From the IMG/VR virus record IMGVR_UViG_3300030117_007448, positions 2,603 to 23,978 of that record: a DNA stretch of 21,376 nt; one strand, written 5' to 3'. The position numbers and the translations under genes were made by a program. This document shows, piece by piece, positions 538 to 21,376 of the stretch. Position 1 is the first letter of the stretch. Every line of letters begins with the position of its first letter. This DNA is from a virus. The notes under the pieces are model-generated. The model had not been told where the DNA came from and searched no databases. It saw only the letters and a program-made list of their open reading frames with translations.

Positions 538-1362
538 TTAATTGTTTGTCGTATCATCCCAAACGGTTTGAAGGTCAACTGAGAATCCAGTATCTCTTCT
601 TACAAAGTCTTCAGTTACCAATTTAGCGATGTCTCTATACTCCCCAGGATTTGCTGGAATACGGTATATATTAATCATGTTACCAATAATATAGGAGTGT
701 AATCCTTTCTTTGGTAGACTACTAGCATCGATTGCTGTATTATTTAGCAAACTTTCTGAAATAGTATCACGGTAGTCAGGATTAAGGTAGTGAACATTAT
801 AACCAAGTATCTTATTATCATCAATTAAACCTAACATAAACGCAAGTGGTCTCTTATCCCAGTATTCATATCTTTCTGGAAACCTTGCATCATAATCAAA
901 GAATAAAAAATCTCCCATTTTTATATCGTCTGTATCAATTTTAGCATCAACAAAACTTAATTCTGCTCTTAACTCTTCGGCATACCAATCAATATCAGTA
1001 TCAGGTGTACGAAGTCCTTTTTCCATGACAGCATCGCCAATTGTTTGTCTTGTTTGTAACTCTTGTTCTATCTCTCTCTGTTCTCTTGCCTCTATTACTT
1101 GTCTTTTTTTCTCTTCTCTTCTTTCCTCTAAGGTTTGTGCAGCAATCTGCCTTTGCTCAGATCTTCTAATTCTTGCTTTATATTTTACATTCGCACCTAT
1201 TGCTTTTATTAAGTCTGATTTTCTTTTGTTCCCTAAGTTTCCAATATTCATATTATAGAATAAAGTAATACCTCTCAATTCAGCAAGACTATATCTTTCT
1301 AATGGAAAAGTAGTTCCATCAAGACGACTATAAATTTGTGCTTCTCTTTCTGCTTTACTCAT
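538..1362 (-). CDS. Conserved phage protein with SAP/HeH-like N-terminus and coiled coil
   Basis: 274 residues. The start ATG (1360-1362) overlaps the stop of the gp4-like gene by four bases, and an AGGA Shine-Dalgarno (complement of 1368-1371) supports it. Residues about 22-57 (YSLAELRGITLFYNM, then NKRKSDLIKAIG) resemble a SAP or Rho-N helix-extended-helix fold, often a nucleic-acid-binding module. Residues about 60-115 are a highly charged Arg/Glu/Gln helix, probably a coiled coil. The C-terminal half has a compact alpha/beta-looking segment, FLFFDYDARFPERYEYWDKR then LGYNVHYLNPDYRD. I recall similar wording from small conserved T4-like phage proteins of unknown function, but cannot name a family. 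Its position with the head-completion nuclease suggests a head or DNA-packaging role. That is inference only. Confidence 0.85.
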   Translation of the reverse strand: MSKAEREAQIYSRLDGTTFPLERYSLAELRGITLFYNMNIGNLGNKRKSDLIKAIGANVKYKARIRRSEQRQIAAQTLEERREEKKRQVIEAREQREIEQELQTRQTIGDAVMEKGLRTPDTDIDWYAEELRAELSFVDAKIDTDDIKMGDFLFFDYDARFPERYEYWDKRPLAFMLGLIDDNKILGYNVHYLNPDYRDTISESLLNNTAIDASSLPKKGLHSYIIGNMINIYRIPANPGEYRDIAKLVTEDFVRRDTGFSVDLQTVWDDTTNN

Positions 1363-1831: not shown

Positions 1832-3250
1832 ATGGCAGACATAAACCAATCTGTACTACCATTATATAAGAAGATAAATGATGCTCAAAGAGATCTATTT
1901 CCCTTATCTCTCACTGCTGAGTTTAAGGTATCTCTAAATCTTGGATATGATACTGATATTAGCACTTCCCCAAGTTTGAGTTCATGGTTAACTAAATGTG
2001 GTGTAGCAAATAGTCCACAAGATTTAGCGAGATATGATTTCTTTGCATCAGATGTAACATTACCTGGTGCATCTTTTGATATGGCAGAAAGTATGGGAGA
2101 TAGACAAGGAACTATAGAAAGATTTGCTCAAAGGAGACTATATGCACCATTAAGTGTTTCATTTTATGTTGATGCAGATTACAATATAATTAGATTATTT
2201 GAAGAGTGGATGAACTTTATGAATCCAATCCATAATGATCAAGGAAGATATGAAGGATCATTTCAAGGACAGAGTGGATATGAAGGAAGAAATAACTATT
2301 ACAAGTTCAGATATCCAGATGATTATAAGAGAAATATAATAGTAACAAAATTTGAAAAAGACTTTTATCAAGGTCTGAATATGAATGAAACTCGTATTGG
2401 TAGATTTGCTAAGAGTAGAAGTGGTGACAATTTAATTCCTGGATCTCTTTTAATGTATCAGTTCATTGATGCATTTCCAAGTAATGTTGTTGCAATACCG
2501 TTGTCATATCAAGGCACAGATATAACAAAAGTTACAATTGAATTTCAATACCTTAGATACAATACGATTACAAACAATGATAAGAGTGATTTATATTCTG
2601 AAAATGTATTTGGACAAGATGTTATTAAAAATTATGATAACTCTGTGATAGGTCAACTAAATGCAAGTGCAGCAAAATCATCGACTGTTGTTGGATTTGT
2701 AAATGGTGAACCATATAGTGGACCTTATCATGTACATGAAAGAGATGATGGTACAGTAATTAAAATGACTGGTGTTGAGCATTCAGGTGTTGCACATAAC
2801 ATTATATACTCTACAGCAGAGGAGAGTTTAAGTGGTGCTGTTAACACAACCACAACTTCTGATGATAATGAATCTAATAATAATGAATCTAATAATAATG
2901 AATCTAATAATCAACAACAGGCAGACACTACACCACCAGAAGCACCGACCAATCTATCCATTACAACTGTAGCAAGTGATAATACACCGACAATCATAGG
3001 TGATGCAGAGGCTAGCAGCACAGTCAAAGTATTCAATGGATCTAATCAGATCGCTACTGCAGGTGTAGGTTCAGATGGATCATTCTCAGTTACAATTCCT
3101 AGTGCATTGGCAAATGGAACATATACCTTTACTATCACCGTAACAGATGCTGCAGGTAATGTTTCCAACTCTTCTAATATTTCGCATACGATTAATGTTC
3201 CAAGTTCAGGTAATGGTAATGGTAATGGATACTCATCACCAGGTTACTAA
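1832..3250 (+). CDS. gp48: Baseplate tail tube cap-like protein (gp48 type) with C-terminal Ig-like domain
   Basis: 472 residues, longer than T4 gp48 (about 360). Residues 1 to about 310 look like a tail-tube-fold protein: DFFASDVTLPGASFD, then FAQRRLYAPLSVSFYVD and FEEWMNFMNP, a pattern shared by tube and tube-initiator proteins (gp19/gp48/gp54) of T4-like phages. Such proteins cap the baseplate hub and start tube polymerisation. gp54 is the main alternative. A low-complexity linker with three perfect NESNN units follows at about 346-360. Residues 365-456 (DTTPPEAPTNLSITT to SHTINV) match bacterial Ig-like domains of adhesins, and the last 16 residues are Gly/Asn/Ser-rich. The added Ig domain would be exposed on the tail. 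No Shine-Dalgarno precedes the ATG. The assignment as tube cap is fairly secure, the exact gp number less so. Confidence 0.8.
   Translation: MADINQSVLPLYKKINDAQRDLFPLSLTAEFKVSLNLGYDTDISTSPSLSSWLTKCGVANSPQDLARYDFFASDVTLPGASFDMAESMGDRQGTIERFAQRRLYAPLSVSFYVDADYNIIRLFEEWMNFMNPIHNDQGRYEGSFQGQSGYEGRNNYYKFRYPDDYKRNIIVTKFEKDFYQGLNMNETRIGRFAKSRSGDNLIPGSLLMYQFIDAFPSNVVAIPLSYQGTDITKVTIEFQYLRYNTITNNDKSDLYSENVFGQDVIKNYDNSVIGQLNASAAKSSTVVGFVNGEPYSGPYHVHERDDGTVIKMTGVEHSGVAHNIIYSTAEESLSGAVNTTTTSDDNESNNNESNNNESNNQQQADTTPPEAPTNLSITTVASDNTPTIIGDAEASSTVKVFNGSNQIATAGVGSDGSFSVTIPSALANGTYTFTITVTDAAGNVSNSSNISHTINVPSSGNGNGNGYSSPGY
2867..2911 (+). repeat. Three perfect 15-bp tandem repeats in the gp48 linker
   Basis: The unit AATGAATCTAATAAT occurs three times without mismatch at 2867-2881, 2882-2896 and 2897-2911, encoding three Asn/Glu/Ser units. 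The unit is a multiple of three, so copy-number change by slippage would lengthen or shorten the linker before the Ig-like domain without breaking the frame. A shorter in-frame repeat, GGTAAT three times at 3209-3226, encodes the Gly/Asn tail of the same protein. Confidence 0.95.
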
Positions 3251-3283
3251 AACCCTGCTATATACAATACTGAATAAAATATT

Positions 3284-4009
3284 ATGCCTTTACCAAAAAT
3301 TACGACCCCGACATATGAGTTGGTTCTTCCATCAACTGGAAAGAAGATTAAATATAGACCATTCTTAGTCAAAGAAGAAAAAATTCTAATACTTGCATTA
3401 GAAAGTGAAAATATAAAACAGATAACAACTTCAGTAAAATCAATACTGAAAGAGTGTATTCAAACAAGAGGAGTGAAGATTGATACTCTTCCTATTTTTG
3501 ATATTGAATATTTGTTTTTAAATGTAAGAGGTAAATCTGTTAGTGAAGCACTAGAATTGATAGTAACATGCCCTGATGATGGCAAGACTACTGTTCCTGT
3601 CAAGGTTTATATTGATGAGATAGGAGTTATTAAGGATCCTGATCATAGTAATGATATTAAGTTAGATGATAAATTGACATTAAGATTAAAATACCCATCT
3701 CTCGATGAATTTATAAAAAATAATTTTGATTTTAATTCAAGAGATGAAGGTGCACTACAACAATCTTTTGAAATAATCGCTACATGTATCGATCAGGTTT
3801 ATAATGAAGAAGAGTCATGGGCAGCATCTGACTGCACTAAGAAAGAACTTATAGAGTGGGTTGAAACACTGAATACAAATCAATTTAAATTAATCGAATC
3901 ATTTTTTACTTCTATGCCTAAATTATCTCACACTATTAAAGTTAAAAATCCAAATACGCAAGTTGAAAGTGACGTGACGTTGGAGGGTCTAGCATCTTTT
4001 TTCGCTTAA
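3284..4009 (+). CDS. gp26: Baseplate hub subunit, T4 gp26-like
   Basis: 241 residues (T4 gp26 is about 208). The N-terminus, LPKITTPTYELVLPSTGKKI, followed by YRPFLVKEEKILILALES, is the typical opening of the T4 gp26 baseplate family in marine T4-like phages. The middle carries a short beta-rich part ending in a Cys (ELIVTCPDDGKTT), and the C-terminal half is helical (LIEWVETLNTNQFKLIESFF). In T4, gp26 takes part in hub assembly. Here the gene is followed two bases later by a small gp51-like gene and then by tape-measure-like genes, the same arrangement as tail assembly chaperone pairs in other phages. A -1 slippery heptamer lies at 3997-4003, three codons before the stop. It begins 33 bases after the preceding gene. 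I see no convincing Shine-Dalgarno. Confidence 0.85.
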   Translation: MPLPKITTPTYELVLPSTGKKIKYRPFLVKEEKILILALESENIKQITTSVKSILKECIQTRGVKIDTLPIFDIEYLFLNVRGKSVSEALELIVTCPDDGKTTVPVKVYIDEIGVIKDPDHSNDIKLDDKLTLRLKYPSLDEFIKNNFDFNSRDEGALQQSFEIIATCIDQVYNEEESWAASDCTKKELIEWVETLNTNQFKLIESFFTSMPKLSHTIKVKNPNTQVESDVTLEGLASFFA

Positions 4010-4040
4010 GTATGTCTCATATGGATCTTGAGTCATACTT
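3997..4040 (+). promoter_or_regulatory. Candidate programmed -1 frameshift site joining gp26 and gp51
   Basis: In the gp26 frame the end reads TCT TTT TTC GCT TAA. T3997 plus the next two codons form T TTT TTC, a canonical X XXY YYZ slippery heptamer. A -1 slip continues as CGC TTA AGT ATG TCT, directly into the gp51-like frame with no stop. A hairpin begins four bases later: 4008-4014 (AAGTATG) pairs with 4034-4040 (CATACTT), then after a T-T mismatch 4016-4019 (CTCA) pairs with 4029-4032 (TGAG), leaving a 9-base loop. The fusion would be 240 + 3 + 62 = 305 residues. All of this is visible in the sequence. That it works in vivo is inference. Confidence 0.6.
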
Positions 4041-4200
4041 CAAACTTAATTTTGCTTTGATGCAACACCATAAATATAGTTTGACTGAAATTGAAAATAT
4101 GATACCTTGGGAAAGAGATATCTATCTTGGATTATTGAATCAATATATTGAGGAAGAAAATTTAAAGGCACAACAGCAACAAACAAATTATGGAACCTAA
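4012..4200 (+). CDS. gp51: Small baseplate hub assembly protein, gp51-like
   Basis: 62 residues, beginning MSHMDLESYFKLNFALMQHH and containing SLTEIENMIPWERDIYLGLL. It is mostly helical with a Gln-rich tail. Small proteins of this kind directly after gp26 in cyanomyoviruses have been labelled gp51, the hub assembly catalyst, although T4 gp51 is far longer (about 249 residues), so the equivalence is weak. The MIPWERDIYL pattern recalls second-frame segments of tail assembly chaperones that are made by frameshifting. The gene starts two bases after the gp26 stop with no Shine-Dalgarno, in the -1 frame relative to gp26. It may be translated mainly as a gp26 fusion, by coupling, or both. It overlaps the next gene by 11 bases. 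ATG 4021 is an alternative start. Confidence 0.7.
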   Translation: MSHMDLESYFKLNFALMQHHKYSLTEIENMIPWERDIYLGLLNQYIEEENLKAQQQQTNYGT

Positions 4201-5698
4201 ACTTCCTAAAATTAAACCCAACATTCAACCTAACAAAATAGTTAGAGGGAATAGAGGAAGTTATGGTGGAGTAAAATCAAAAGGATTAAATCCTTTAGTT
4301 AGAAATATCACAGATAGCGATAATCTTTTTTCAAAGATGCAGGATATTAATCCTGAAGTTAGAAATAAAAGAGGAACAAGAACTCTGTTCAACATGATAG
4401 GAACTTTTGGAACAGAGAGAAATGAAAAAATAATTAGGAAAAATCTACAACTATTAAGAAATACATTAGTTGAAACTTTTGAAATTGCGAAACTTTTACG
4501 CATGAACGCAGCGAGTGGATCTGGCGGTGCTGGTCTTGCGATTGCTGGTGCTGCTGGTCTTGGTGGTTTAGCAGGTTACGGATTAGCAGCTTCAGGTGGA
4601 CTTGAAAAAATGTTGGGACTTGATGAAGATGATAAAAAAGAGGATAAAGAACTTGCTGATAAAGAAAAAGAAGAGGTTGATGTTTTAGTATCTGAGGCAG
4701 AAGAACTACTTAAAAATAAAGAAGAGTATGATGAAAGTAAACTTGATTCTAATTTAGAAAAATCATCGAATAATTTAATAGAACGTGTCAGTGGTGGATT
4801 TAATGAACTAGTTTTAGGTTTAAATAAACTAGTAAAAGGTGAGGGTATTGTAGAAGTTTCAAATATTAAAACAGAAAGTAATGATAATAAATTAGAGGTT
4901 GTACAGAAGTCAGAAAAAACGACTGAAGTAGATGATTTAGTTAGTGGAATAAAAAATTCTTTTAAAGATCAATTAAAAACTGAAATTAAAATGGGTGAAT
5001 CTAATAATGATTATGGTGCGATGTATAGTCGAGACCGTGATACTTTTGATCGTGGTGATGAGGATATAACTGGAATGACAATTAGTGAGTTAGATCAATT
5101 ACAGACAGATTATATTAATCATCAAAAGGAACTTGGATATGATTCTAGTGAGATAAGTGCTGCAATGGGTGCATATCAAATGTTAAATCCATTAAAGGTT
5201 GCAGAAGAAATGGGTTTAGATCCAGAAACAACTGTCTTTAATAAAGAGACACAAGATATGATGGCAGATTACTTCTTAAATTATGCAGGATTAGAGGAGT
5301 TTAAAGCGGGAGAGATTACTGCAGAGGAATTTAATAATAGATTAGCAGAACAGTTTGCATCTATTGAAACCACGAGTGGTGAAGGTGTGTATGATGATGA
5401 TGGAATTAATAAAGCAAATACTAATATACTTGAACTTATCAAATCTCAAGAATCAAAATATAAAGATTTAAGTGAAGGTATACTTTTAAAGGGTAAAGGA
5501 AAAGGTGAAGTTATTATAATTGATAACACTAAAGAAGTGCAACCAATTAGTCCTGGTAGAAGCGGAAAAGCAACGATCATGAGCAATAGTGATCCAGGTC
5601 GAGCAGCATCAAGTGGACCTACACTTACATTTTTGAGTTCTTCAAATTCTGATGCATCTAATATTTCAACTAAGTCTGTAATAGGATTGATAGGATAG
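4190..5698 (+). CDS. Structural/tape-measure-region protein with lysozyme-like domain
   Basis: 502 residues. Residues 1-100 are basic and helical. About 105-137 is a Gly/Ala-rich hydrophobic stretch (GLAIAGAAGLGGLAGYGLAA). About 143-250 is an acidic coiled-coil-like segment. About 262-410 resembles a phage muramidase or transglycosylase domain: MGESNNDYGAMY with E270 as probable catalytic Glu, then DITGMTISELDQLQ, SAAMGAYQ (327-330 GAYQ), MGLDPETTVFNKETQDMM and FNNRLAEQFASI. This order matches lysozyme-like domains that read GES...MTIGE...GRYQ...TP..QD. The C-terminus is Ser-rich. In T4 the tail lysozyme is in gp5. Here gp5 lacks it, so this protein may cut peptidoglycan during infection. It follows the assembly genes, where a tape measure is expected, so it may do both jobs. 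No Shine-Dalgarno is seen; the start overlaps the previous gene. Confidence 0.75.
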   Translation: MEPKLPKIKPNIQPNKIVRGNRGSYGGVKSKGLNPLVRNITDSDNLFSKMQDINPEVRNKRGTRTLFNMIGTFGTERNEKIIRKNLQLLRNTLVETFEIAKLLRMNAASGSGGAGLAIAGAAGLGGLAGYGLAASGGLEKMLGLDEDDKKEDKELADKEKEEVDVLVSEAEELLKNKEEYDESKLDSNLEKSSNNLIERVSGGFNELVLGLNKLVKGEGIVEVSNIKTESNDNKLEVVQKSEKTTEVDDLVSGIKNSFKDQLKTEIKMGESNNDYGAMYSRDRDTFDRGDEDITGMTISELDQLQTDYINHQKELGYDSSEISAAMGAYQMLNPLKVAEEMGLDPETTVFNKETQDMMADYFLNYAGLEEFKAGEITAEEFNNRLAEQFASIETTSGEGVYDDDGINKANTNILELIKSQESKYKDLSEGILLKGKGKGEVIIIDNTKEVQPISPGRSGKATIMSNSDPGRAASSGPTLTFLSSSNSDASNISTKSVIGLIG

Positions 5699-11632: not shown

Positions 11633-12501
11633 GTAGAATTACAACTATACATTGCCCAAAGATTTTAGTTAGTCCTTTAGATACATCTATTGCGACTTTC
11701 TCGAACTTAGGATTTAACGCAGGAACATTAGTGAATTCTGGTGTAAGTTTCTTTGGTGGAACATTACAGTTAGGAGTTGCCAGAGCAGCAGTAAATATCG
11801 GACCACCGATTACCATTCCAGGAGTAGCACTACCATTTTCCTTATGGGTTGATGGTATTTCAGTTTTTGTTGGTGTAACTAATTTTATTGGTGCTAGATT
11901 TTCATTTGGATTTGTACAGAACAATGGATTCCATCAAACCAATGGTGCAAAACAAGCGAATGGTGCTGTAGTAAACAATGGCTTTGTGGTTGACAACGCT
12001 ATTCAAGTGGAAAATGGTTTCACTAGAATGAATTCAAACTATAGTTCTCCTGTTGGTTTTGGTGCAATCTTTACAGGAAGAGCATTAAGAAATAAAGGAT
12101 TCGATATACCACATCCAACTAAAAAAGGAACAAGAGTAAGACACATATGTGTTGAGGGTCCAGAGTCTGCTGTTTACATACGAGGTAGATTGACTGGTTC
12201 AAATATAATAGAATTACCAGACTATTGGGATGGATTGGTTGACCTAGATACTGTTACAATATCATTAACACAGATAGGATATGCTCAAGACTTGATTACT
12301 GAGGGTGTCAAGTGGGGTAAACAAGTTTATGTTAAGTCTGGAAACGGAACTACGATTGATTGTTATTATTCTATCTGGGCAAACCGAATAGGTCCACCAT
12401 TACATGTGCAGTATGAAGGAGAATCACCAGCAGACTATCCTGGGGATCAATCTGATCATTCGATTGCTGGATATGATTATGATGTTAGAGGAGGTAAGTG
12501 A
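11629..12501 (+). CDS. Tail/spike-associated protein with cyanophage fibre-type C-terminal domain
   Basis: 290 residues. Residues 1-95 are hydrophobic, Gly-rich and beta-like (MSRITTIHCPKILVSPLDTS, with PPITIPGVALPF). About 98-131 is a run of short NG-containing units (NNGFHQTNGAKQANGAVVNN), probably a beta-helix or fibre shaft. Residues about 158-275 form a recognisable module, FDIPHPTKKGTRVRHICVEG then PESAVYIRGRL, LPDYWDGLVDLDTVTISL and YEGESPADYPGD. I recall this as a C-terminal domain of tail fibre proteins in marine phages, with distant bacterial relatives beginning K.F.I.HP. Its position right after the spike-like gene suggests a tip or spike-associated protein; a PAAR-like tip is possible for the N-terminus but no PAAR motif is clear. 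Start overlaps the previous stop by four bases. Confidence 0.75.
   Translation: MSRITTIHCPKILVSPLDTSIATFSNLGFNAGTLVNSGVSFFGGTLQLGVARAAVNIGPPITIPGVALPFSLWVDGISVFVGVTNFIGARFSFGFVQNNGFHQTNGAKQANGAVVNNGFVVDNAIQVENGFTRMNSNYSSPVGFGAIFTGRALRNKGFDIPHPTKKGTRVRHICVEGPESAVYIRGRLTGSNIIELPDYWDGLVDLDTVTISLTQIGYAQDLITEGVKWGKQVYVKSGNGTTIDCYYSIWANRIGPPLHVQYEGESPADYPGDQSDHSIAGYDYDVRGGK
12488..12495 (+). promoter_or_regulatory. Strong ribosome binding site for the 638-residue gene
   Basis: GAGGAGGT lies five bases before ATG 12501, inside the end of the preceding gene. It is the best Shine-Dalgarno match I noticed in the window; many neighbours have none. It decides the start: GTG 12498 would leave only two bases of spacing. 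Confidence 0.85.
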
Positions 12502-14417
12502 TGGCAGAATTTAAAATAGGTGAAGTAAATAATTATTTCAATCAAGATGATGCTAATTCTATTTTTAGATTAGATGCTGCTGATGAAAATGTCAGTAAAG
12601 ATAAAAGAGATCAAAAAAGAGTTGAGATAATAGTAGAAAATTTAGAAAAGAAAATTAAAGATAAAAATAATCAAAGAGATCAACTTTTAGATCAACTTCA
12701 ATTGTTAGATATTCAAATAGATGCATACGATAGATTAATCATTGAGATTGATGAGAAAGTGCAACCTTTTTTAGATCCAATTAATACTCAAATAAATGCA
12801 GTCAAGGCAGCATATGATGCAAGAATCGCTGCTAATTGTGCTAATTCTTTAAAGTGGGTTGCTATTGCATGGGGAGAAGATGATAATGGTGATCAACTCA
12901 TAACATATGAGTGTCAAAGAAACGCACTACAAACTGTAACAAGGCAAGAAAGAATAGATGGAAGTATTGAAATAATTAGAACAGGAGTCACTGATCCTGG
13001 AACTATAGTTACTGGATATTATGCATATAAATTTTACAGAAAACCTTTGAATAGAGATTATGGTGCAAATTTAGTTGACGTTTTTAGTGGATCAGTCAGT
13101 ACAGGGTCAACAATTCTACAAGTAGAGCAGTCAGAATTTGATGCGACTGCTGGTGATGATGGATTAGAATTTAAAATTGGAGATGAGATAACCGATAGCA
13201 TAGAAAGTCCTAGTCTATTTTCTTTAGGAAGTCTTCCTGCGATTGTCGGAGTCGGAACCACCACAACCTTTAGTGGTATTACAACTACAATTCAAGGAAG
13301 TATATCTGTAGGATCAACTATTCTTTCATTAGTTGGTTTTGGAACTGTAGATATTGGTTTTACATCTGGAAATGTAGTAGATCGTTTAAACTCTGGTCAA
13401 TTTACATCTACAGCAGCAGATTTTGGTGCAAAGGTTGGATCTGGAATTGGTAAAACTGGAACTCTTCCGATTGATACAAAAGTTATTGCGATTGGTAGTG
13501 GTTCAACAAGTTATGAATATTATGATGCAACATTTAACAGTGGAGTTGGTTCAATTAGAACTCGAACTGAAAATGTAATGACATTAGTTTTAAGTTCTGC
13601 TGCGATTGGTTCAACAAGTCTTGGTTCATTTAATGTTGGTATCGTTTCATTTACACCATCTCTCATATTAAGTGAAGCAGCGACTGGAAATGGTTCTGGA
13701 GTTCAGTTTAGTGTAATTCGACCAGCAAAAGATCCAGATAGAGATTTTGATTTTCAAAAAAATCCAATGGATCCTGTTACAATTGGATTAATCACTGGAA
13801 GTAATGCAGGATTAGGACATACTGCACTCGTAGTTAACAATGCAGAACCCACAAGATCAATTGGTTGGCATCAAGTTAGAAATTATACTTTTAGACAATC
13901 TAATGGTGAGGTGAGAGAGTATGATCCCGAACCACCACAAGGTGGAGGAAGAGCAATTTACCACTCAGGAAATCAAGCATGGCCAATTGTTGTAACTGAT
14001 GATGGTGATGGTGGAACAGATGAGAGATATGCATATGAAGGAGAAAAAATAATTGTAGGTGCAACTGGAACTAATTCAGTTATCATTTCTGATCCAGATG
14101 ATGATGATGGTGTGGGTCCAGGGCCAAGTCAAAATCTTGGAACAACTAGTGTATCACCTGGTATAACTGGAAACTGCACCACTCTTGCAAACAACATAAC
14201 CACAGAAAATGCAGCGTTAGTTACAATCACAAATCAAAATTTACCACAGGCAAACAAATTTGCTGCACAAGCAAGAGCACTTAGGGAACTCAGAGATGAT
14301 ATGGAACTTGATGCTTATGGTTTACTGCAGGCTTCTGCAGCAACTCGTAAGGAGATAGATAGATTAACAGTTCTTCTAAATGAAATAAAAGGAGAGGAAT
14401 TAGAATCCTACGGTTGA
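12501..14417 (+). CDS. Structural protein with helical ends and beta-rich middle
   Basis: 638 residues from ATG 12501, overlapping the previous stop by one base (TGATG). A strong Shine-Dalgarno (GAGGAGGT, 12488-12495) sits five bases before this ATG; the GTG at 12498 is too close to it. Residues about 40-90 form a coiled coil (IIVENLEKKIKDKNNQRDQL), as do about 565-635 (NNITTENAALVTITN to KEIDRLTVLLNEIKGEE). Between them lies a Gly/Ser/Thr-rich beta region with GYYAYKFYRKPLNRDYG and strand-like units such as VSTGSTILQVEQSEFD and GSISVGSTILSLVGFGTVDI. Pairing of the two terminal helices could make an elongated trimer or bracket. I do not recognise a named family. The location after spike genes and before the giant fibre-like gene suggests a baseplate or fibre attachment component. 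Confidence 0.8.
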   Translation: MAEFKIGEVNNYFNQDDANSIFRLDAADENVSKDKRDQKRVEIIVENLEKKIKDKNNQRDQLLDQLQLLDIQIDAYDRLIIEIDEKVQPFLDPINTQINAVKAAYDARIAANCANSLKWVAIAWGEDDNGDQLITYECQRNALQTVTRQERIDGSIEIIRTGVTDPGTIVTGYYAYKFYRKPLNRDYGANLVDVFSGSVSTGSTILQVEQSEFDATAGDDGLEFKIGDEITDSIESPSLFSLGSLPAIVGVGTTTTFSGITTTIQGSISVGSTILSLVGFGTVDIGFTSGNVVDRLNSGQFTSTAADFGAKVGSGIGKTGTLPIDTKVIAIGSGSTSYEYYDATFNSGVGSIRTRTENVMTLVLSSAAIGSTSLGSFNVGIVSFTPSLILSEAATGNGSGVQFSVIRPAKDPDRDFDFQKNPMDPVTIGLITGSNAGLGHTALVVNNAEPTRSIGWHQVRNYTFRQSNGEVREYDPEPPQGGGRAIYHSGNQAWPIVVTDDGDGGTDERYAYEGEKIIVGATGTNSVIISDPDDDDGVGPGPSQNLGTTSVSPGITGNCTTLANNITTENAALVTITNQNLPQANKFAAQARALRELRDDMELDAYGLLQASAATRKEIDRLTVLLNEIKGEELESYG

Positions 14418-14779: not shown

Positions 14780-17700
14780 ATGCCTCTTTCTAGGTTAGAA
14801 AATTTTTTAGTTAACACTGATGGTAATATTTTATATGTTAACCCATCAGACTTGGATGCAACTGACAGTTTTGACAATAGAGGAAACTCCCTAACAAGAC
14901 CTTTTAAAACAATTCAAAGGGCTCTTTTAGAATCAGCGAGGTTCTCATATCAAGCGGGTGCAAATAATGATAGGTTTGATAGGACAACAATCATGTTGTA
15001 TCCTGGACAACATTTGATTGACAACAGACCAGGTTTGTCGATTAAGGATAATGGCGGAACAGTACAATATTACGATCAGAATGGAAGTGCAATATCAGCA
15101 GGAACAGCAAATGTAGAACTAACTAATTCTTCTGTATTCGATTTAGGAAACGCATCTAACGTTCTTTATAAGTTTAACTCAGTAGATGGTGGTATTATAA
15201 TTCCAAAAGGTACATCCATAGTTGGTATGGATTTACGTAAGACTAAAATAAGACCTTTATATGTGCCCGATCCAGAAGATGCTTCAATCGAAAGATCTGC
15301 AATCTTTAGAGTGACTGGTGCATGTTACTTCTGGCAGTTCAGTATTTTTGATGCAGATAGGGCAGTATTCTATAATAAAGATTATTCTAAGAAGGCATCT
15401 CCTAAGTTCTCTCACCATAAACTAACCTGTTTTGAGTATGCAGATGGTGTTAATAACAAAACATTAACAGGAACAACTGATCTAGAACAGTATTACTTCA
15501 AAGTGATGAATGCTTATGGAGATGATACGAAGAATAGACAGATCACTAACTACCCTGATAAGAAAGACTTTGAACCTAATACTCCTGAATTTAAGATTGT
15601 TGGTGACTTACAAAGCGATGCACTTGGAATAGCAGAGGTAACTGCAATAGCCGATATCGCAAGTATAACAGTAGGAGTAGATCAAGTACATAATTTAAGT
15701 GTAGATGATAGAATCATAGTCGCTGGTATCAGTTCCTCATTGTATAATGGTATCTACAATGTTGTTGGAGTTACAAGTGAAAGAAAATTTAGTTATCAGT
15801 TACCATCAACTCCAAATGATTTAGTAATTACAATGGGTGGTGGAGAAAAAGTAAAACTATCATCAGACACTGTTGCTGGTGCATCTCCATATATCTTTAA
15901 CCTATCTTTACGTTCTGAGTTTGGAATGTGTGGATTGAATGCTGATGGTGCAAAGGCAACTGGATTTAAATCTATGGTTGTTGCACAGTTTACTGGTATT
16001 TCACTACAGAAAGATGATAATGCATTCGTAATATATGATGAGGCAACAGGAGATTATCAAACAAATTCACAAACAACACTACAAAACCGTCCTTTACATA
16101 GTAATCAAGACGCAACTTACAAAACATCATATGATAACTTCCATGTCAAGGCAGCAAATGATGGATTTATTCAGGCAGTTTCTGTGTTTGCGATTGGATT
16201 TGCACAACATTTCCTAACAGAAAGTGGTGCTGATCAGTCAATTACAAACTCTAACTCTAACTTTGGTGCGAAGTCACTGGTATCAGCAGGATTTAGAAAG
16301 GAAGCATTTAAGAGAGATGATACTGGATATGTTACTCACATTGTTCCACCAAAAGATTTACAGGATGTTGAATTTAACTCAGTGTGGAGAACACTTGATG
16401 TTGGTATCACAACAAGTCCAACTGTAGGATCTGCAACCACTTCTAAATTATACATTGCAGGTGCGACTGATGAAGATAATCCACCTTCAACAATTGTAAA
16501 TGGTTACAGAGTTGGTGCAAGGAAAAATGAGAAGTTATATCTAAACGTAAACGTTGGAGGAGTTGAGTCAGTACAAACAGCACCAGTTCTTATGCAAGTT
16601 GCATCTGGTGATGGACCATCTTCAGAGAAAAGATTCCCAGTATCTAACGTGAATAGTGGTGCTGATACTTTAAACTTTGCATCAGCACATAACTTTATCA
16701 CTGGTGAAACTGTAAGAGTTTATAGTGATAATGGTTATACTCCAGATGGAATCGAAAATGAGAGTATAATATACTTTGCAATTAATAGTAGTTCAACTTC
16801 AATCAAGTTAGCAAAGACAAGAAACGCAGCAGATGCAGGAAATGCAATTGATATTAAAAATGCTAACGGTGGTTTCTTAGAAGTTGTAAGTAGAGTTACA
16901 GATAAAGTTCCTGGAGATCCAGGTCATCCTATTCAGTTTGATACTGCTAATGGTAATTGGTTTGTAACAAGTTCAAATACAACAACTACAAATAAAATAT
17001 TCTCTGCTTTAGTTGCCAATCCAAAAGAGATTGCAGATGCAAATTCTTCTACTTATATCTTGAGACAACCAGAGAATCGTGATGCAAGAGATAGAATTTA
17101 TAAGTTACGTTATGTAATACCAAAAGATTATAGAGGTGTAAACGTTGCAAAAGCACCTGAAAAGTATTACACACTTCAGGAATCATCCACAACCACTGAA
17201 GATGCATCAATTGAAAATGTAAATTCAAATAGAAACCCAAGAATTATATCTGGTATTAGTACAAGTGGAACTCTTGTGACTGTAACTACTGAGTTACCCC
17301 ATGATTTACATATTAATGATAGAGTATTCCTCAGTAATATTAAGAGTAGCACTAACACAACCGCAGCAGTCAACGCTGGATTCAACGGATACTATAATGT
17401 AGTAACAGTTCCTTCCACTAAATCATTTACTTACAATGTTGTTGGAGACGGTGGAACTTTTGATGCCACATCTGATCAACCAAGATTTGCAAGAAATGAA
17501 TACAATACAACCTATTTTATTGAGGATGTTGATGAGATACAAGAGTATATTCCAAACGTAGGAACTTTAGATAACGGTCAAGATGGTGTCTACTATCTAA
17601 CTTGTCAAAAGGTTACTGTAAGTCCAACAGTATCTGAGTTCTCAGGACTTAAATTAAAACAGGAAATTCAAACTTTATTCCCAACTCTTGATAAGGACAA

Positions 17701-20700
17701 TCAGGACAATGATCCAGTACAAGCAGTATCATTTGCATCTAATAAAACTTTAGGAAAGACAAGTGTAAATGATTCCCTTAACAGCAGCACAAAAGAAGTT
17801 GCAATAGATTATTTAAATGATATTGGTGTTGGTCTTGGTGTTACATCAGCAGCATCAGACAATGTTGGTGTTACAACTCTATTCACAGATTCAAATCATA
17901 ATTTAAATACAATTACTGGAATTACAATTACAAATGGTGGAACTGGATATGCTGTTGGTGATAATATAACACTAGTCAGTCCATTTATTGTTGGTAGAGA
18001 TGCTACAGTTAATATTACGTCTGTTGGTTCAGGTAATAGTATTACTGGAGTTTCAATTGTTGATGGCGGATCTGCATATGGTGTAGGTAATACAGTTAAC
18101 GTATCTACTGGTAACGCAAATGCGATTCTAACAATTTCAAATATCAATAGCAATGTTGGTGATATAGTTCAGGTTGTTGGAGTTGGAACAACAAGTAATA
18201 GATTCAACAGTAACTTCAATGGATTATATAAAGTCACAAGCATTCCTGGTCCAAATTCATTAGTTTATAATGCAGGATCTAATCCTGGAATTTATACCAC
18301 AGGAAATGGTATTGTATTCTTTGGTGATGAAGCAAAGTCTGTGTCAGCAATCGCAGGTATCACAACGACACTTGCTGGTATTGTAACTGTAACAACTAGC
18401 ACTGCTCATGGACTGTCTCTTGGTAACAAAGTAAAAATTACAGGAGTGACTGGAACGGGTTCGACAATATTCAATAATGACTTCATAGTTAAAGAGAAGA
18501 AGAGTCTCACACAGTTTACAATCAAAGCATCAGTCGGTATACCAACCACAGGTGTTGCATCTGCAGAGGTTTATAAGTATAATCTTGGTGCGTATGGTCA
18601 AGATTCTTCACTACAAACTGAAAGAATTGGTGGTAGTTTAGTTAATATGACTGCTGGTATCAGTACTACTACAAGTGCAGGTATTGGAACGAATGAAGTT
18701 ACTACACAAATTACAAATACAATTGGATTATCCAAAGGCGACTTCCTTCAGGTTGACAACGAGATTTTAAGAATTAAAGCAGTTGATTCTGGTGTACAGT
18801 TAACAATCATTAGGGGTCTTCTTGGAACTAGATCAGTTCCTCATGCTTCTGGATCATTAATTAAGAAGATTAATATAATTCCATCTGAGGTTCGTAGATA
18901 TTCTAGTACTCGATCATCTGGACAGACCTTTGAATATGTTGGATATGGACCAGGTAACTACTCGACTGCACTACCACAACTTAGAGAGAAAACAATTACT
19001 CTTGAAGAGGAGTTTCTTGCAATTGCAAGAGAAACAAATGGTGGTGTGATTCGATACACTGGTATGAATGACCGTGGTGATTTCTTCAAAGGAGATGATA
19101 GATTACAACCAAGAGAGAATGTTCTTGGTGAAGACATCTCAGATCTAACAGCAACATTTGATGATGTTTATATCCGTAATACACTTACAGTTGGTGGTGG
19201 TGCAAATCGTAACTTACCATCTGAGTTCAGAGGACCAGTCAACTTTGGTAACAAAATTACATCAACTTCTGAAGATGGTATTGATGCAATCAAGTTACTA
19301 CTTCAAGGAACTTCAACTCTTAATCCTTCATTCCAAGTTGGTGAGGATGCAAATCCATCATTGATTGTTAATCAAGGAACTCAAAATGTTGGTATCAAAA
19401 CATTTAATCCTTCATATGAGTTTGATGTAAATGGTACAATCCGTGCAAACGTGTATGAGAACTTTAAGTTAAGTGATCTACCAGATGCAACTGAGGAAGT
19501 AACATTCAAGAGAAATCGTTTCTTAAAAGTTAAAGATGATCAGACTGGTTATGAATTAGTTGATGGTCATGAGATCGAGTCTTATAGATTGAGAAGTTAC
19601 GGTGTAAGTAACGACCCAACCATATACGTTGGTACTGGATCTACTGTAGGTGGTAAAACACAGATCGCTGGTATATCAACTGCTAAGTTCTATGTTGGAG
19701 AGAAGGTGAAGGTATTTGGTATCTCAACTTCAACTGATGCTGGTTTAGTTCCTAATCCAGTTCCAGGAAACTTTAGTATAGAGAAGGTTGGAACTGCTGC
19801 AACAGTTAATACTTACTACTATTGGGCTGCTGAATATGTTTATAGAAGTGGTAAGGTTGGTATCTGTTCTGCAATCGGACCTACAATCGGTATTGGACAT
19901 ACAACTCTTGATAACTTTAATGATTTAAATCATAATGTCATTACAATGGCAAGATCAGGTGTTAATAATGGACTATTAATATATCGTCAGCAACATGTTG
20001 GAGTTGGTGTTACAGCAACCAGAGACATTGGACAGTCAAAACTTATTGGAATACTTGGTCCAAAAGAATTAGGATCCGCTACTAATAATATCAAGTGGCA
20101 AGACTATGGAACATACGATCAAACTACATGGTCACCAAACGGAACACTTAATGAGTATGATGCTGATCAGATTCACTTCCCAAATATTGGAACTGATGCT
20201 CAGAGAAGAGGATGGTTGATCGATACAGTTCAGTCAATTGGAATTAATAATATTGTTTTGACAGGTCAAGGATTATTGAACATTGGATTTGGAACTGGAA
20301 CAGCGACAACAGCAGAGGTTAAAGTTGTTCATGATAATACTTATTCACTAAGTAATGCAATTGATATTACAGTTGCAGACGGTGGTAACTATCTAAATCT
20401 TCCTAGTGGAACTTACCTAACAAATAATTTAGTTCTACCTACAGGATTCACTCTTAAAGGTAATGGTAAGAATACAATAATTAAACAGCAGTACTTTGCT
20501 CATGATTCAAGTGATGGGCATGGAAATAATTTAGTGTTCAGTGGTAACTTTGTTGGTGTAGGAACTGATAAGGACATAGATTCAGATCCAACTTCAACTG
20601 ACATGACAATTCAGGATGTAACAATTGATGGTAACTCTGGAAATAATATTAGATTTGGTGAACCATTAGTAGAGAACTCATCAAATAGTTTCCTAGTGTA

Positions 20701-21376
20701 CTTTAAGAATATAACTTCATCATTAATTAAGGGTGTAGAAGTTAGAAACTCACCTTCACATGCGATACAAGTACAGAACTCTACTCGACTTTCAATAGAA
20801 AACTGCTCGATTGTAGATGGAGGTATCACAGATAGATACACATTCTTCCCAATCTATGCACAGGATTCTGATGTATTAAGATTAAATGATTCAGTGATTG
20901 AAAACTTCTCAGGACCTGTTGACTTGTCTGCAACTTCAGTTGTATCAACTGGAGGAAATATTATTCGTAACTCTGGAACTGGTCTTAGAATGTATGCTTC
21001 TGGTAAGGTTACAACCACAAATAATATTTTACTTGGACCATCTGATGAATTCTTGCCTTCACCAGATATATTTGATAGTGATTTCAATTCAGTTAACGTT
21101 ACAGTTGACAGATCAACAGACTTTGACGGACCTGTTATGCAGTATATCAGAGATGGAAATCCATTTGATATTCGCAGCACTAGAGTTAGAATTGTTGATG
21201 TTGGAATTGGAACAATTGTTGGACAAGGAACAACAAATGAAACACTTGGAACTAAGTTCATGAAGTTTAATGTTCCAACACCTGATGTAGGTACATTCGG
21301 AAGAGAAAATGGATACCTACAATTAACATTAACTCCAGCACAAACTGCAACTCTTGGTTTGACATCCTCACTTGGA
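14780..21376 (+). CDS. Giant beta-rich tail/baseplate structural protein (open at right edge)
   Basis: Reading from ATG 14780 gives 2199 codons with no stop to the window end, so the gene is 3'-partial. The start MPLSRLENFLVNTDGNILYV, with NSLTRPFKTIQRALLESARF, recalls large structural proteins of marine T4-like phages. Residues about 15-220 resemble the start of a pectate-lyase-type beta-helix (PFKTIQRAL, TTIMLYPGQHL, IIPKGTSIVGMDLRKTKIRP). About 288-1254 carries recurring modules with H-x-L...D-R/K-V followed by NGxYxV and FxY, plus two GG-[ST]-x-Y turns at about 1053-1090. About 1295-1365 reads LSKGDFLQVDNEILRIKAVD then IIRGLLGTRSVPHASG. Around 1535-1555 is a fibre-like VGIKTFNPSYEFDVNGTIRA. 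About 1855-2085 is a second right-handed beta-helix (LPSGTYLTNNLVLPTGFTLK, VTIDGNSGNN, IENCSIVDG, IIRNSGTGL). It is likely a fibre or peripheral baseplate protein that contacts cell-surface glycans. The exact role is unknown. Confidence 0.85.
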   Translation, partial: MPLSRLENFLVNTDGNILYVNPSDLDATDSFDNRGNSLTRPFKTIQRALLESARFSYQAGANNDRFDRTTIMLYPGQHLIDNRPGLSIKDNGGTVQYYDQNGSAISAGTANVELTNSSVFDLGNASNVLYKFNSVDGGIIIPKGTSIVGMDLRKTKIRPLYVPDPEDASIERSAIFRVTGACYFWQFSIFDADRAVFYNKDYSKKASPKFSHHKLTCFEYADGVNNKTLTGTTDLEQYYFKVMNAYGDDTKNRQITNYPDKKDFEPNTPEFKIVGDLQSDALGIAEVTAIADIASITVGVDQVHNLSVDDRIIVAGISSSLYNGIYNVVGVTSERKFSYQLPSTPNDLVITMGGGEKVKLSSDTVAGASPYIFNLSLRSEFGMCGLNADGAKATGFKSMVVAQFTGISLQKDDNAFVIYDEATGDYQTNSQTTLQNRPLHSNQDATYKTSYDNFHVKAANDGFIQAVSVFAIGFAQHFLTESGADQSITNSNSNFGAKSLVSAGFRKEAFKRDDTGYVTHIVPPKDLQDVEFNSVWRTLDVGITTSPTVGSATTSKLYIAGATDEDNPPSTIVNGYRVGARKNEKLYLNVNVGGVESVQTAPVLMQVASGDGPSSEKRFPVSNVNSGADTLNFASAHNFITGETVRVYSDNGYTPDGIENESIIYFAINSSSTSIKLAKTRNAADAGNAIDIKNANGGFLEVVSRVTDKVPGDPGHPIQFDTANGNWFVTSSNTTTTNKIFSALVANPKEIADANSSTYILRQPENRDARDRIYKLRYVIPKDYRGVNVAKAPEKYYTLQESSTTTEDASIENVNSNRNPRIISGISTSGTLVTVTTELPHDLHINDRVFLSNIKSSTNTTAAVNAGFNGYYNVVTVPSTKSFTYNVVGDGGTFDATSDQPRFARNEYNTTYFIEDVDEIQEYIPNVGTLDNGQDGVYYLTCQKVTVSPTVSEFSGLKLKQEIQTLFPTLDKDNQDNDPVQAVSFASNKTLGKTSVNDSLNSSTKEVAIDYLNDIGVGLGVTSAASDNVGVTTLFTDSNHNLNTITGITITNGGTGYAVGDNITLVSPFIVGRDATVNITSVGSGNSITGVSIVDGGSAYGVGNTVNVSTGNANAILTISNINSNVGDIVQVVGVGTTSNRFNSNFNGLYKVTSIPGPNSLVYNAGSNPGIYTTGNGIVFFGDEAKSVSAIAGITTTLAGIVTVTTSTAHGLSLGNKVKITGVTGTGSTIFNNDFIVKEKKSLTQFTIKASVGIPTTGVASAEVYKYNLGAYGQDSSLQTERIGGSLVNMTAGISTTTSAGIGTNEVTTQITNTIGLSKGDFLQVDNEILRIKAVDSGVQLTIIRGLLGTRSVPHASGSLIKKINIIPSEVRRYSSTRSSGQTFEYVGYGPGNYSTALPQLREKTITLEEEFLAIARETNGGVIRYTGMNDRGDFFKGDDRLQPRENVLGEDISDLTATFDDVYIRNTLTVGGGANRNLPSEFRGPVNFGNKITSTSEDGIDAIKLLLQGTSTLNPSFQVGEDANPSLIVNQGTQNVGIKTFNPSYEFDVNGTIRANVYENFKLSDLPDATEEVTFKRNRFLKVKDDQTGYELVDGHEIESYRLRSYGVSNDPTIYVGTGSTVGGKTQIAGISTAKFYVGEKVKVFGISTSTDAGLVPNPVPGNFSIEKVGTAATVNTYYYWAAEYVYRSGKVGICSAIGPTIGIGHTTLDNFNDLNHNVITMARSGVNNGLLIYRQQHVGVGVTATRDIGQSKLIGILGPKELGSATNNIKWQDYGTYDQTTWSPNGTLNEYDADQIHFPNIGTDAQRRGWLIDTVQSIGINNIVLTGQGLLNIGFGTGTATTAEVKVVHDNTYSLSNAIDITVADGGNYLNLPSGTYLTNNLVLPTGFTLKGNGKNTIIKQQYFAHDSSDGHGNNLVFSGNFVGVGTDKDIDSDPTSTDMTIQDVTIDGNSGNNIRFGEPLVENSSNSFLVYFKNITSSLIKGVEVRNSPSHAIQVQNSTRLSIENCSIVDGGITDRYTFFPIYAQDSDVLRLNDSVIENFSGPVDLSATSVVSTGGNIIRNSGTGLRMYASGKVTTTNNILLGPSDEFLPSPDIFDSDFNSVNVTVDRSTDFDGPVMQYIRDGNPFDIRSTRVRIVDVGIGTIVGQGTTNETLGTKFMKFNVPTPDVGTFGRENGYLQLTLTPAQTATLGLTSSLG

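Follow-up and report, generated by a model that had tools for sequence, protein, structure and literature searches.

The stretch of DNA analysed here (21,376 nucleotides of the IMG/VR virus record IMGVR_UViG_3300030117_007448, hereafter the window) carries a gp26-like gene followed by a small open reading frame (ORF) that resembles gp51, and the features of this junction are collected in Table 1. The gp26 ORF ends in GCA TCT TTT TTC GCT TAA, in which positions 3997–4003 conform in frame 0 to the X_XXY_YYZ pattern of -1 programmed ribosomal frameshifting (XXY = 3998–4000, YYZ = 4001–4003), and the canonical slippery heptamer that had been predicted at the end of gp26 was thus found in the correct phase. 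The original prediction placed this site three codons before the stop, which holds if counting starts at the first codon of the slip site; after YYZ, a single sense codon (GCT) precedes the gp26 stop. Reading in the -1 frame from position 3997 gives FFRLSMSHMDLESYF... and meets no stop until 4198–4200, such that 240 aa decoded in frame 0 and 65 aa decoded in the -1 frame would make up a fusion of 305 aa, exactly the product that had been anticipated from a slip into the gp51-like frame.

Table 1. Features at and directly downstream of the gp26–gp51 junction (positions refer to the window).
Feature	Position	Strand	Remarks
gp26-like gene, putative short tail assembly chaperone form (TAC-N)	3284..4009	+	241 aa; PF12322 T4_baseplate E=1.8e-70, phrog_150 E=5e-77
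Candidate slippery heptamer T_TTT_TTC for -1 frameshifting	3997..4003	+	In phase; conserved among relatives
Frame-0 stop TAA	4007..4009	+	One codon past the heptamer; 0–3 sense codons in relatives
-1 frame extension, putative C-terminal part of the long form (TAC-NC)	4003..4200	+	65 aa post-slip; open -1 frame; C-terminus of T4 gp51 matched
Stem-loop, probable stimulator	4008..4040	+	7 bp, T-T mismatch, 4 bp, 9-nt loop
62-aa ORF, stand-alone 'gp51' reading	4012..4200	+	ATG at 4012; phrog_634 E=3.5e-29 for 4012–4197
Next gene downstream	4190..5698	+	502 aa; phrog_18972 only (function unknown); tape-measure-like by position alone

In-phase T_TTT_TTA heptamers occur twice more in the middle of genes of the window, at codon 152 of 538–1362 (-) and codon 91 of 12498–14417 (+), and these look like the background of AT-rich DNA. 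The motif alone is therefore weak evidence, and it is its conservation that carries the case. The heptamer, its phase, the one-codon gap to the stop and the -1 relation between the two frames are intact in all 80 of the closest IMG/VR loci (63–93% identity). Furthermore, T_TTT_TTN was found in phase and 0–3 sense codons ahead of the gp26 stop in 251 of 254 usable loci, whereas the gp26 gene bodies of the same relatives have such a site at 15 of 58,525 codon positions, by which chance, raised in the original prediction as the explanation to be excluded, is ruled out. In each of these 251 loci, as in the window, the -1 frame is open past the gp26 stop, giving an extension of 55–69 aa, and the heptamer reads TTTTTTC (197 loci), TTTTTTA (28), seven T (24) or TTTTTTG (2).

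The 254 loci share ancestry and such counts are not independent, the fair measure being a parsimony count. A tree built from 155 dereplicated gp26 genes requires 0 steps at the third positions of X and XXY, against a median of 40 elsewhere, and these are the only invariant third-position columns besides that of the ATG start codon; the heptamer and its phase have thus been retained despite synonymous drift, which had been named beforehand as support for the prediction, and to a degree beyond coding need. The first two positions of the X codon, on the other hand, underwent 28 changes (encoding S, N, A, D, T or G), while YYZ is TTC, TTT, TTA or TTG across loci, encoding Phe or Leu, and a Phe-Phe pair is therefore not the conserved item. 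This substitution pattern indicates that the constraint on the heptamer acts on nucleotides rather than on the protein. The observations that would have spoken against frameshifting (a broken heptamer, a stop between the frames or a different relative frame) were not encountered in the marine clade, where the heptamer is unbroken, the -1 frame has no stop and the two frames are offset by -1 throughout.

The reading in which gp26 and gp51 are ordinary neighbour genes, with gp51 translated from its own ATG by re-initiation and the run of T incidental, draws on the position of that ATG in the window (2 nt past the gp26 stop), on its retention in 75 of 158 dereplicated loci and on the fact that 26 and 51 are separate genes in T4. 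However, the other 83 loci have a different codon here (mostly CTN), and 64 of the 158 have no ATG, GTG or TTG for at least 8 codons, though the conserved SH..LE.Y region sits there; in these 64 loci, translation of the conserved N-terminal end of the domain would thus need a fusion or a non-standard start. Moreover, the frame is already open and conserved ahead of the first possible start, the synonymous sites of the heptamer show no change, and T4 gp51 corresponds to the complete fusion rather than to the small ORF; re-initiation at a separate gene is therefore very improbable. Judged by its start codons, the stand-alone 62-aa ORF is probably not the main product, and gp51 appears mostly not to be a separate gene but the end of a frameshift product. 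The 62-aa ORF matches positions 60–118 only of the phrog_634 profile, and it additionally matches positions 240–278 of phrog_150, a first sign, at the level of profiles, of natural fusions among the members.

The 'baseplate hub assembly' genes in the GenBank annotations of Melnitz (3250–3393) and S-T4 (1565–1699) begin at an internal ATG, these annotated starts lying inside the conserved domain because there is no start codon at its real beginning, while the annotation of Aeromonas AsFcp_4 omits the gp51-like ORF. What numerous records of cyanophages and marine phages call 'gp51' (baseplate hub assembly catalyst) would accordingly be the tail of a frameshift product and not a gene, calling for a correction of the annotation in many marine phage records.

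The T4 locus contains the same two protein families as that of the window. Residues 1–201 of T4 gp51 match PF12322 (3.9e-52) and residues 147–246 match phrog_634 (1.2e-23); in BLASTP comparisons, T4 gp51 matches T4 gp26 (2e-6), and its C-terminus matches the 62-aa ORF of the window (2e-5). Since T4 gp51 (249 aa) thus combines the gp26 family with the gp51 C-terminal part, T4 has a dedicated gene for the long form, and since T4 genes 26 and 51 are separate and divergent, no frameshift takes place here in T4, in contrast to what is proposed for the window. By these matches, the marine 'gp51' is the counterpart of the C-terminal part of T4 gp51 only, and not of the whole protein. The T4 literature counts gp26 and gp51 among the chaperones of hub assembly, gp51 being absent from the finished particle (PMC3004832). 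The poorly understood gp51 of T4 could then be read simply as the longer version of a chaperone that has gp26 as its short version.

Downstream of the heptamer, the predicted 7-bp stem, T-T mismatch and further 4-bp stem were recovered: positions 4008–4014 pair with 4034–4040, the mismatch is formed by 4015 and 4033, and 4016–4019 pair with 4029–4032. The structure begins 4 nt past the heptamer and has a minimum free energy of -11.7 kcal/mol (z = -3.4). Its conservation among relatives, likewise named beforehand as support, holds in the clade of the window, where the mean z just past the heptamer is -2.88 (n=78, 68% below -2) as opposed to -0.71 to +0.36 at eight control offsets; it does not extend to the Melnitz-like and P-RSM4-like groups, in which the mean z past the heptamer (-0.46 and -0.26, respectively) is similar to that in their own controls and no stem-loop was detected. 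Within the window group, 79% of cells are paired compared to 27–45% when the alignment is slid, although some lineages break the stem. Paired two-sided changes are present in columns 21/35, 19/37 and 20/36, but double changes, counted by themselves, are no more numerous than in the slid controls. RNAalifold returned no consensus structure for all 84 window-group sequences, and the hairpin is therefore not universal even in this group. These sequence comparisons lend moderate support to the stem-loop as a clade-specific stimulator. That the long form arises from slippage of RNA polymerase in the run of T is likewise very improbable: six or seven T in AT-rich DNA and a one-base insertion would give the same frame, but most loci have no more than 6 T, which is short for known transcriptional slippage sites, the register to the codons is preserved, and the stem-loop of the window group lies at the spacing expected for ribosomal stimulation.

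The heptamer arrangement was found in Kyanoviridae and Straboviridae (Aeromonas phage 65, Vibrio nt-1), and additionally in Stenotrophomonas DLP6 and Ps15, Aeromonas AsFcp_4, Vibrio VmeM-32, Rhizobium IG49 and AF3, Variovorax V45v66, and Sinorhizobium phiN3 and phiM9. Single-sequence scans of viral contigs with the gp26 of DLP6 and of nt-1 returned only two loci each. In Melnitz-like phages (L101–L117, L081), the stop codon abuts the heptamer (TTT TTT TA[AG]) and a clear stem-loop is absent; the adjacent stop may act as the stimulator in these phages. The 3' ends of gp26 in Ackermannviridae-like phages (L088, L090, L091, L264, L265 and L266) do not contain the T6 heptamer and have NTT_TTC or GTT_TTT, yet the -1 gp51-like extension stays open; the absence of the heptamer in these relatives counts against the recoding proposed below. 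A TAATG overlap is present at some of these gp26 ends, while others have no ATG. One tentative view, which we regard as possible rather than probable, is that the T6 slip site is ancient and has stayed constant across the T4-like superfamily, the T4 group excepted, its helper having been swapped by lineage: the clade of the window would rely on a stem-loop and Melnitz-like phages on a stop immediately behind the heptamer, while Ackermannviridae would have given up the heptamer itself and maintained the -1 frame by a slip of undescribed type on NTT_TTC or GTT_TTT.

On the comparisons described above, gp26 and the downstream 'gp51' ORF very probably constitute one recoded tail assembly chaperone gene, which would yield the short TAC-N and, via a -1 slip, the long TAC-NC. 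The short form carries the PF12322/phrog_150 domain, and the composition expected of the long form, i.e. the short form plus the gp51 C-terminal part, is seen in T4 gp51, which matches both. For the slippage itself, its efficiency and the binding partners of each form, we infer the following course. The majority of ribosomes would stop at 4007–4009 and release the short form of 241 aa, while in a minority the tRNA-Phe on TTT and TTC would shift back by one base and pair with TTT TTT, aided by the nearby stop and, in the clade of the window, also by the stem-loop 4–6 nt downstream. The slipped ribosomes would continue in the -1 frame to produce the 305-aa TAC-NC with its gp51-like C-terminal part. 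The mechanism would, by analogy and also by published assignment, resemble that of lambda G/GT: as with gpG and gpGT, the short form may coat the tape measure protein, and the long form may recruit tail tube subunits or the hub through its C-terminal part. The heptamer would also offer a concrete mutable site for testing tail assembly in cyanophages.

The principle of a frameshifted tail chaperone in T4-like phages is already published and is not new here. Vladimirov, Gautam and Davidson (2022, Virology 566:9-15) reportedly identified the tail assembly chaperones of T4-like phages and named 26 and 51. A passage in PMC12846349 credits Vladimirov et al. 2022 with poly-T frameshift signals in the TAC-N genes of T4-like phages, and one in PMC10885494 credits the same work with the finding that some T4-like phages carry separate short and long genes instead. 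As far as these passages describe them, those systems and the present one have in common a gp26-family short form, a longer form with the gp51 C-terminal part and a poly-T signal, the latter known from several T4-like groups, the window differing in being an uncultured marine fragment. The proposal of a gp26–gp51 chaperone pair in the original prediction thus agrees with the T4-like literature, as it does with the domains of T4 gp51, but the idea had been published before and the marine 'gp51' stands for the C-terminal part only. The present analysis contributes the depth of conservation, the synonymous-site test, the evidence for a clade-specific stem-loop and the annotation correction, and may overlap with Vladimirov et al. 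2022. Among other -1 frameshift chaperones, lambda G/GT and its relatives (Xu, Hendrix and Duda 2004) differ in that the lambda heptamer is G-rich/A-rich as opposed to U_UUU_UUC here. The TAC locus of the Vandenendeviridae/Andersonviridae (Pseudomonas phage Adele, PMC12846349) is similar in its -1 frameshift, its poly-T site (GTTTTT) and the mis-annotation of the downstream ORF as a separate gene, whereas the phage families are different and the motif is shorter.

Structural comparison was also performed. The predicted structure of gp26 (pLDDT 88) matched gp26 proteins of many phages in Foldseek; against the PDB, HK97 gp13 (2OB9) ranked 2 and 4, with E-values of 0.66 and 1.0 that are not significant and with low TM-scores. 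Sequence searches with gp26 and T4 gp51 against solved structures gave no credible match.

The next genes after gp26/gp51 in some relatives have weak tape measure matches or strong endolysin matches. An argument from Shine-Dalgarno sequences was dropped, as none was clear by eye at gp26 or at the next gene. Elsewhere in the window, 1832–3250 (+) encodes a tail-tube-like protein (phrog_45, Phage_TTP_2) with a C-terminal bacterial Ig-like domain (Big_13, 3.7e-15) behind a low-complexity linker. Finally, 14780–21376 (+) is a single ORF of at least 2199 aa that continues past the end of the window, and the many short ORFs listed within it represent overlaps with this large ORF.
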